Below are positions 63,333 through 64,000 of a stretch of DNA of 64,000 bases, one piece after another. The stretch lies in assembly GCA_017355425.1 (NCBI GenBank), contig CP070233.1:164501-228500 (forward strand), given 5' to 3'. The first letter of the stretch is position 1, and each line of letters starts with the position of its first letter. A model generated the notes under the pieces. It did no database searches. It was not told the DNA's origin and worked only from the letters and a program-made list of their open reading frames with translations. This DNA comes from Dolichospermum sp. DET69. Its GTDB lineage: Bacteria > Cyanobacteriota > Cyanobacteriia > Cyanobacteriales > Nostocaceae. The position numbers and the translations under genes were made by a program.

Positions 63333-63776
63333 TTATTTAGCAAGCAATTTTGCAGCATTTTCTTCGCTTTCAAGAATACCGAATTCGATTAACAATTCTT
63401 CCAACTCTTCCATTTCGATAGGTGTGGGGATGGTGAGGTGTTTGTTGTTAATGATCTTCTTAGCTAATTCGCGGTATTCGTTAGCTTGTTTGCTATCAGG
63501 TGCATACTCGTTCACTGTCATACGACGTAGTTCAGCGTGTTGAACTATGTTGTCGCGGGGAACGTAGTGAATCATTTGAGTGTTCAAACGTTTTGCCAAG
63601 GTTTCGATTAATTCGATTTCTCGGTCAGTGTTACGGCTGTTACAGATCAAACCACCTAAACGTACTCCACCGGAGTGAGCATACTTAAGTACACCACGAG
63701 CGATGTTGTTTGCAGCGTACATCGCCATCATTTCACCTGATGTAACGATGTAGATTTCTTGTGCTTTACCTTCACG
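63333..63776 (-). CDS. nifH: nifH 3' segment, Fe protein C-terminal half, interrupted
   Basis: 147 codons of NifH from [20 protein letters not shown] through [36 protein letters not shown] to the end ([17 protein letters not shown]). The P-loop GKGGIGKS, the switch regions and both 4Fe-4S cysteines (Cys97, Cys132 by Azotobacter numbering) are absent. The frame continues upstream for ten foreign codons ([10 protein letters not shown], to 63806). The missing half must lie right of the window. Break just after the expected GGFAMPI. Confidence 0.94.
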
Positions 63777-64000
63777 GGTAAGACTATTGATATAATCTAA
63801 ATTCACGTAAAGTGTTTATTTTCTACAATGTTTACTGCGATCATTGTCAGAAATGGACAGTTTTTTTATTAGGGTGAATCTAGGGTATGAACAGATCACA
63901 GGAAGCATTTGCCGATTTTCAACCAACAGCTATCACGGATGGGGGATATTTAGGTAGAATGCAAGCAGTAAATGACCAAGAAGTTCACATCACAACTAAG
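63777..64000. mobile_element. nifH interruption element, left end
   Basis: From the nifH break to the window edge the sequence is unrelated to nif. It contains the start of a divergent XisA/XisC-like gene 110 bp from the junction. Shared sequence at the junction is probably within CCGTGAAGG. The other end, the rest of the recombinase and nifH 5' are expected beyond 64000. Confidence 0.82.
63887..64000 (+). CDS. XisA/XisC-like recombinase of the nifH element, N-terminus only
   Basis: 38 codons to the edge: MNRSQEAFADFQPTAITDGG, YLGRMQAVNDQEVHITTK. This resembles, from memory, the first 40 residues of long XisA/XisC proteins (QQAFADLEP..STDG.FLG....MRTK), the very part that the nifD-element XisA at 49107 lacks. 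Divergent from nifH. Confidence 0.65.
   Translation, partial: MNRSQEAFADFQPTAITDGGYLGRMQAVNDQEVHITTK

Follow-up and report, generated by a model that had tools for sequence, protein, structure and literature searches.

A nifH1/XisG-type element in Dolichospermum sp. DET69 and candidate arm-type sites in the ends of XisA-family elements

How could a recombinase that cuts an element out of a nitrogenase operon find its own two repeats when the same short repeat is scattered over the whole genome? The question is raised by nifH, the Fe-protein gene, at the edge of a 64,000-nucleotide stretch (hereafter the window) of Dolichospermum sp. DET69 (GCA_017355425.1, CP070233.1; G000:C1:164501-228500, in a genome of 6.04 Mb in two contigs). 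In this study, we found that, with high confidence, what splits nifH is a programmed-excision element of 5.3 kb that belongs to the nifH1/XisG type and works as a whole in the way proposed below, and that both ends of the element carry copies of a hexamer that are candidate sites for its recombinase.

The interrupted nifH gene and its recombinase

A first-pass annotation, made from the letters of the window, had proposed that nifH is split by an element with its own recombinase, and a genome search with PF00142 agreed with it. The 3' part of the gene occupies window positions 63333..63777 on the minus strand, from repeat to stop codon (match C1:227875-228276, PF00142 positions 137-270), and the 5' half lies 5.3 kb beyond, at C1:233571-233993 on the same strand (PF00142 positions 1-141). 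Each break carries the direct repeat CCGTGAAG: the recombinase-side copy at window 63770..63777 (minus strand; C1:228270-228277) matches exactly the far copy at C1:233579-233586, outside the window, and the two are 5309 bp apart. A short direct repeat had been expected; it is the 8 bp CCGTGAAG and not the 9 bp CCGTGAAGG. The open reading frame (ORF) at window 63333-63806 (minus strand) indeed begins with ten foreign codons followed by nifH 3' sequence, and the 5' half, predicted to end near GGFAMPI, reads GGFAMPI-RED-stop. Because this stop comes two codons after the repeat codons, as it also does in 23 of 27 complete elements, no whole Fe protein would be made in vegetative cells. When the halves were joined in silico at CCGTGAAG, an open, in-frame NifH of 289 codons resulted. 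By analogy with the published Nodularia case, XisG would recombine the two repeats in developing heterocysts, so that nifH is restored in frame and the element leaves as a circle. Within the window CCGTGAAG is unremarkable (one occurrence vs 0.68 expected by chance), and it gains its significance from its recurrence at the far break; the whole genome holds 97 occurrences. Of 27 nifH elements, 16 have exactly CCGTGAAG as their repeat, and the others have repeats of 7 to 16 bp. The possibility of a complete nifH elsewhere had also been raised, and none was found in the whole genome: the sole other full-length PF00142 match, at C1:1000864, was rejected as an intact second nifH since by eye it reads as ChlL-like (chlL).

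The gene that had been noticed as a divergent XisA/XisC-like start 110 bp outside the break proved to be a complete xisG-type tyrosine recombinase gene of 475 amino acids. It starts at window 63887, inside the element beside the nifH 3' half and facing inwards, and runs on the plus strand past the window (63887..64000) to C1:229814 (positions 1888-3315 in locus L008). The phage integrase family phrog_1 matched residues 32-439 (E value 2e-8), PF00589 matched weakly and below its cut-off (E value 2e-4), and NCBIfam offered no name above its cut-off. XisG is 48% identical to the XisA of the same genome, and in a tree with its relatives 23 XisG sequences formed one side of a branch with support of 100/100. 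The active-site residues R..(Y for H)xxR..Y, which we assigned from the family pattern, were invariant in 36 aligned sequences and are the same in this XisG. A structure model (predicted local distance difference test, pLDDT, 80.4; predicted template modelling score, pTM, 0.46) matched lambda integrase (1z19, 1z1b), Cre, XerH and the Tn1549 integrase across the core-binding and catalytic fold, with XerA ranked first and full-length lambda integrase fifth by Foldseek. The proposed N-terminal arm-binding domain gave a weak fold match, in a fold list that did not contain lambda's own arm domain. These results show that XisG is a lambda-integrase-like tyrosine recombinase retaining the active-site residues of its family, and the concern that the edge gene might not be a recombinase can be dropped.

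XisG (at least 76% identity, with the next listed matches at 51% or less) was present in 40 of 217 family genomes, including 13 of 16 genomes of the genus. In eight of eight XisG-negative genomes, which we chose ourselves, the nifH site was uninterrupted and its halves contiguous. A contig scan yielded 23 further loci, 24 with the one studied here, and elements among relatives ranged from 2.5 to 11.5 kb. Behind xisG lies a PD-(D/E)XK-like gene (L008:3385-3990; PADLOC PDLC01472, E value 8e-51), which was found in 12 of the 24 nifH elements. Further cargo comprises a HigB-type toxin with a small neighbour, a ParD-type antitoxin, a helix-turn-helix (HTH) protein that by eye is a possible endonuclease, and a DNA methyltransferase (phrog_24333, E value 6e-69). 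The HTH/methyltransferase pair was considered as a fixed part of the element and rejected; it occurred in only 3/24 loci, so addiction by this pair is not a general mechanism. Separately, nifH appears to be broken once more near codon 46 in six XisG-positive loci and one negative (L020, L023, L024, L036, L058, L059 and L043), so that some strains would carry two nifH elements.

As read from the ORFs, the gene order is nifB, fdxN, nifS, nifU, nifH(5'), element, nifH(3'), nifD(5'), nifD element, nifD(3') and nifK; fdxN appears whole in this cluster. The nifD element that had been claimed for the same operon was recovered with its repeats and an XisA-type recombinase, and presumably both elements must leave before nitrogenase is made.

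Paired hexamers in the element ends

Besides the repeat, aligned nifH element ends contained strongly kept blocks inside the element. Among these is TAGGGT, found in the window on the plus strand at 63870..63875 and, abutting the xisG start codon, at 63881..63886, a pair 11 bp apart that we regard as candidate arm-type sites. Counted from the repeat on the recombinase side, the copies in nifH elements lie at +93 and +104, of which the latter again abuts the xisG start; counted from the far repeat, the far-end copies are often at about -133, -113 or -22. TAGGGT density was 9.4/kb in the element ends vs 0.58/kb in the interior, and both fixed-width ends contained it in 26/27 nifH elements. The pair, with up to three mismatches allowed, occurs once in the whole genome, vs the 97 copies of CCGTGAAG. 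As a sequence pattern, repeated sites are present in each arm of the nifH element at some distance from the core; any inversion of the arms on either side of the 8-bp core looked weak by eye. Between repeat and hexamer pair, many nifH and nifD elements conserve another block, around ACAATGTTT/AAACATTGT (for example at window 63820-63860).

It is probable from this site pattern that XisG recognises TAGGGT. By reading these sites in both ends, XisG could pick its two repeats from the other 95 copies of CCGTGAAG, and the same reading would set its element apart from those of XisA and XisC. Since the sites sit inside the element, the rejoined nifH keeps no TAGGGT site.

A similar layout was found in other element classes, each with its own hexamer: TAGGGT for XisG/nifH, TAGGCT or TAGTCT for XisA/nifD, AGGGAA for XisC/hupL and TTTAAG for a second nifD type. 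In nifD elements (XisA) from ten further genomes, selected for having two ends that could be located, TAGGCT was at both ends in all ten with the layout of the nifH elements; AGGGAA was likewise at both ends of 10/10 hupL elements (XisC), taken from ten genomes with repeat pairs on one contig among the matches listed. In nifD elements of the window's own genus, TAGTCT stood near xisA in 8 of 15 (TAGGCT in four) and in the far ends of 10/10, the counts of this class (XisA-D) being looser because its near-end windows were longer (420 bp, whereas most of the others measured 130-170 bp). When all hexamers were screened for words that form a pair near xis, 9-13 bp apart, and recur in the far end, AGGGTA and then TAGGGT came out on top for nifH, as did TAGGCT, AGGGAA and TAGTCT in the other classes. 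Measured pair gaps were 11 bp in 45/46 cases and 21 bp in one. Far-end copies in four classes (27/27, 10/10, 10/10 and 10/10) exceeded those expected from shuffles (4.9, 1.9, 2.4 and 1.1, respectively), and the 11-bp peak appeared at the near ends of all five classes and the far ends of four (tied with 10 bp in hupL). The second nifD type, near codon 300, was examined after the rule had been formed: in the five loci with both ends, TTTAAG was near xis in 5/5 and at the far end in 5/5, with an 11-bp peak at both ends, although in two loci the far break was placed manually on the basis of matches that overlap, and two loci (L024 and L033) are near-identical. The nifD elements of L024 (about 6582-8383), L033 and L035, near codon 300, measure about 1.8 kb and extend barely beyond the recombinase gene. 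In xis upstream regions unused in the discovery, a perfect hexamer pair at 11 bp was present in 6 of 12, vs 8.8% of random 230-bp windows.

These patterns suggest, with somewhat better than even confidence, that a single attachment-site architecture is common to the XisA-family elements of heterocystous cyanobacteria. Arm-type sites in the two element ends, paired 11 bp apart and with a lineage-specific hexamer, would form a code beyond the 8 to 16 bp repeat and let several recombinases share an operon without crossing. Several observations weigh against such a shared code. Without four XisA of the TAGGCT class, the upstream check gave a perfect pair in 3/8 and none in 5/8; in XisA-D, an 11-bp peak was absent from the far ends, and no more than 3 of 15 near ends held an exact pair of TAGTCT spaced 9-13 bp; the TTTAAG word is AT-rich and lacks specificity; and hexamers of different classes do cross-match.

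Alternative readings and neighbouring elements

The strongest competing explanation is that the TAGGGT, TAGGCT and AGGGAA pairs are mere promoter, operator or ribosome-binding features of xis, with far-end copies that are chance or unrelated. The position of the pair speaks for it, since in the nifH and most hupL elements little or no sequence separates the pair from the xis start codon; moreover, AGGG resembles a Shine-Dalgarno sequence, and an autoregulatory operator would also co-vary with its recombinase. However, the far-end copies exceed the shuffle expectation in four classes, mostly at near-fixed places, pairing at 11 bp peaks in the far ends of 4/5 classes, and in XisA elements about 11-13 bp separate the pair, whose AGGC is not Shine-Dalgarno-like, from the likely ATG. 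On these grounds we consider a regulatory role alone to be unlikely, though a serious contender; its Shine-Dalgarno version was rejected, because the pair is not of that form in XisA elements and the far-end copies would stay unexplained.

For the nifH insertion itself, decay into a remnant that is no longer excised, with nitrogen fixation lost, would find some encouragement in the adjoining nifD element, which has no pair beside xisA, about 2 kb of extra DNA and a mismatched repeat. Such decay appears improbable, given that the reading frames of the recombinase and of the two nifH halves are open, the nifH repeats match exactly and the TAGGGT pair is kept. Assembly error joining two places is scarcely credible, judged from the assembled sequences: in 22 of 23 XisG genomes among the matches listed (a count by eye that leaves 17 further XisG genomes aside), xisG and the nifH 5' half are on one contig, facing each other 3-12 kb apart, the exception being G047 with two contigs. 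Furthermore, the nifH 3' part lay near the recombinase in 24/24 loci, at a distance of 110-111 bp in 22 of them, of 150 bp (measured to where the match starts) in another and of 3.1 kb in the last, and the 5' part was within reach in 20/24. A programmed-excision element thus accounts best for the split nifH.

As for the nifD element of this strain, the nifD 5' part ORF (61764..63158, minus strand) ends just past the 5'-side repeat GGATTACTCCG (61796..61806, minus strand), and the 3'-side repeat TACTCCG (47013..47019, minus strand), about 14.8 kb away, is mismatched to it. Two TAGTCT copies (61563..61568 and 61716..61721, plus strand) are candidate far-end arm-type sites. The XisA-type recombinase (433 amino acids; 49107..50408, plus strand) has an N-terminal part shorter than those of several relatives and is separated from the repeat by about 2.1 kb (47013-49107), vs about 165 bp from repeat to matched xisA start in L113; two genes that we read as Uma2-like lie within this interval. 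A degenerate remnant of the pair beside xisA scored 74.5 in alignment vs a maximum of 46.5 in 200 shuffles. Judged by its sequence, this nifD element has lost its site pair beside xisA. The sequence just before xisA is much alike in L108, the nearest relative, and nifD excision may be altered in both strains. A near copy of the nifD repeat, CGGAGTAAATCC, occurs at window 47317, between repeat and xisA.

With regard to hupL, the gene has an uninterrupted frame at window 24057-25484 (C1:188557-189984) with a single CACAGCAGTTATATGG, a sequence present twice in 13 of 15 congeners (one mismatch allowed), as expected of a hupL element; no hupL element was found in this genome. A third XisA-family homologue (C1:4122169-4123245, 34%) contains an internal stop and is perhaps a dead recombinase.

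Comparison with known systems

The nifH element described here is a new copy of the known nifH1/XisG kind and ordinary for its group, adding a further case to the programmed deletions of bacterial operons. Nodularia spumigena CCY9414 carries a single nifH1 element with XisG and a single nifD element (PMC3610870); excision of the former in heterocysts is cited there as reported by others, the activity being credited to Vintila 2011. The two nifH elements share the gene, the size (5.2 kb in Nodularia vs 5.3 kb here), the 8-bp repeat CCGTGAAG, an XisA/XisC-type recombinase with 48% identity to XisA and with tyrosine in place of the histidine, a putative DNA methylase among the cargo and a nifD element in the same cluster. 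They differ in that the cargo here includes toxin-antitoxin genes and the PD-(D/E)XK-like gene (Nodularia being compared by description), and that neither a second nifH nor a hupL element was found in this genome. Two deletions within one nifHDK operon, as put forward in the first-pass annotation, are both present as elements, but the arrangement is already described in Nodularia and in Anabaena sp. 90, which has two elements in nifH and one in nifD (PMC3542288). Its suggestion that nifH elements are far rarer than nifD elements did not hold, as the survey of Hilton 2016 counted 19 vs 34 in 38 genomes (PMC4874684). Split nifH with its own recombinase is common to the elements of that survey and of Anabaena sp. 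90; fragment lengths given for the latter place one break at base 426, the repeat start here (PMC3542288), and position labels in the former (e.g. nifH 405) could not be matched to this element.

The paired sites seem to be the new part. No report of arm-type sites for XisA, XisC or XisG was found in the literature searched, which mostly did not include the main XisA papers, and these may describe the paired repeats. The 2013 Nodularia paper counted 111 copies of CCGTGAAG and left open how the recombinase chooses the right pair (PMC3610870), a question for which the paired sites offer a concrete, testable candidate answer. If this is true, the one-base steps TAGGGT, TAGGCT and TAGTCT would be a natural set of orthogonal recombinases. 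The nifD/XisA and hupL/XisC elements have a recombinase of the same family and paired 11-bp sites by xis with far-end copies, and differ from nifH/XisG in core repeat and hexamer.

The arm-type sites of lambda integrase are small and lie away from the core, some of them as adjacent direct repeats. Lambda integrase and XisG have the core-binding and catalytic fold in common, whereas arm binding by the XisG N-terminal domain is proposed here. Following this analogy, we read the hexamers as arm-type recombinase sites, as in lambda integrase, which would keep recombinases that share an operon apart.
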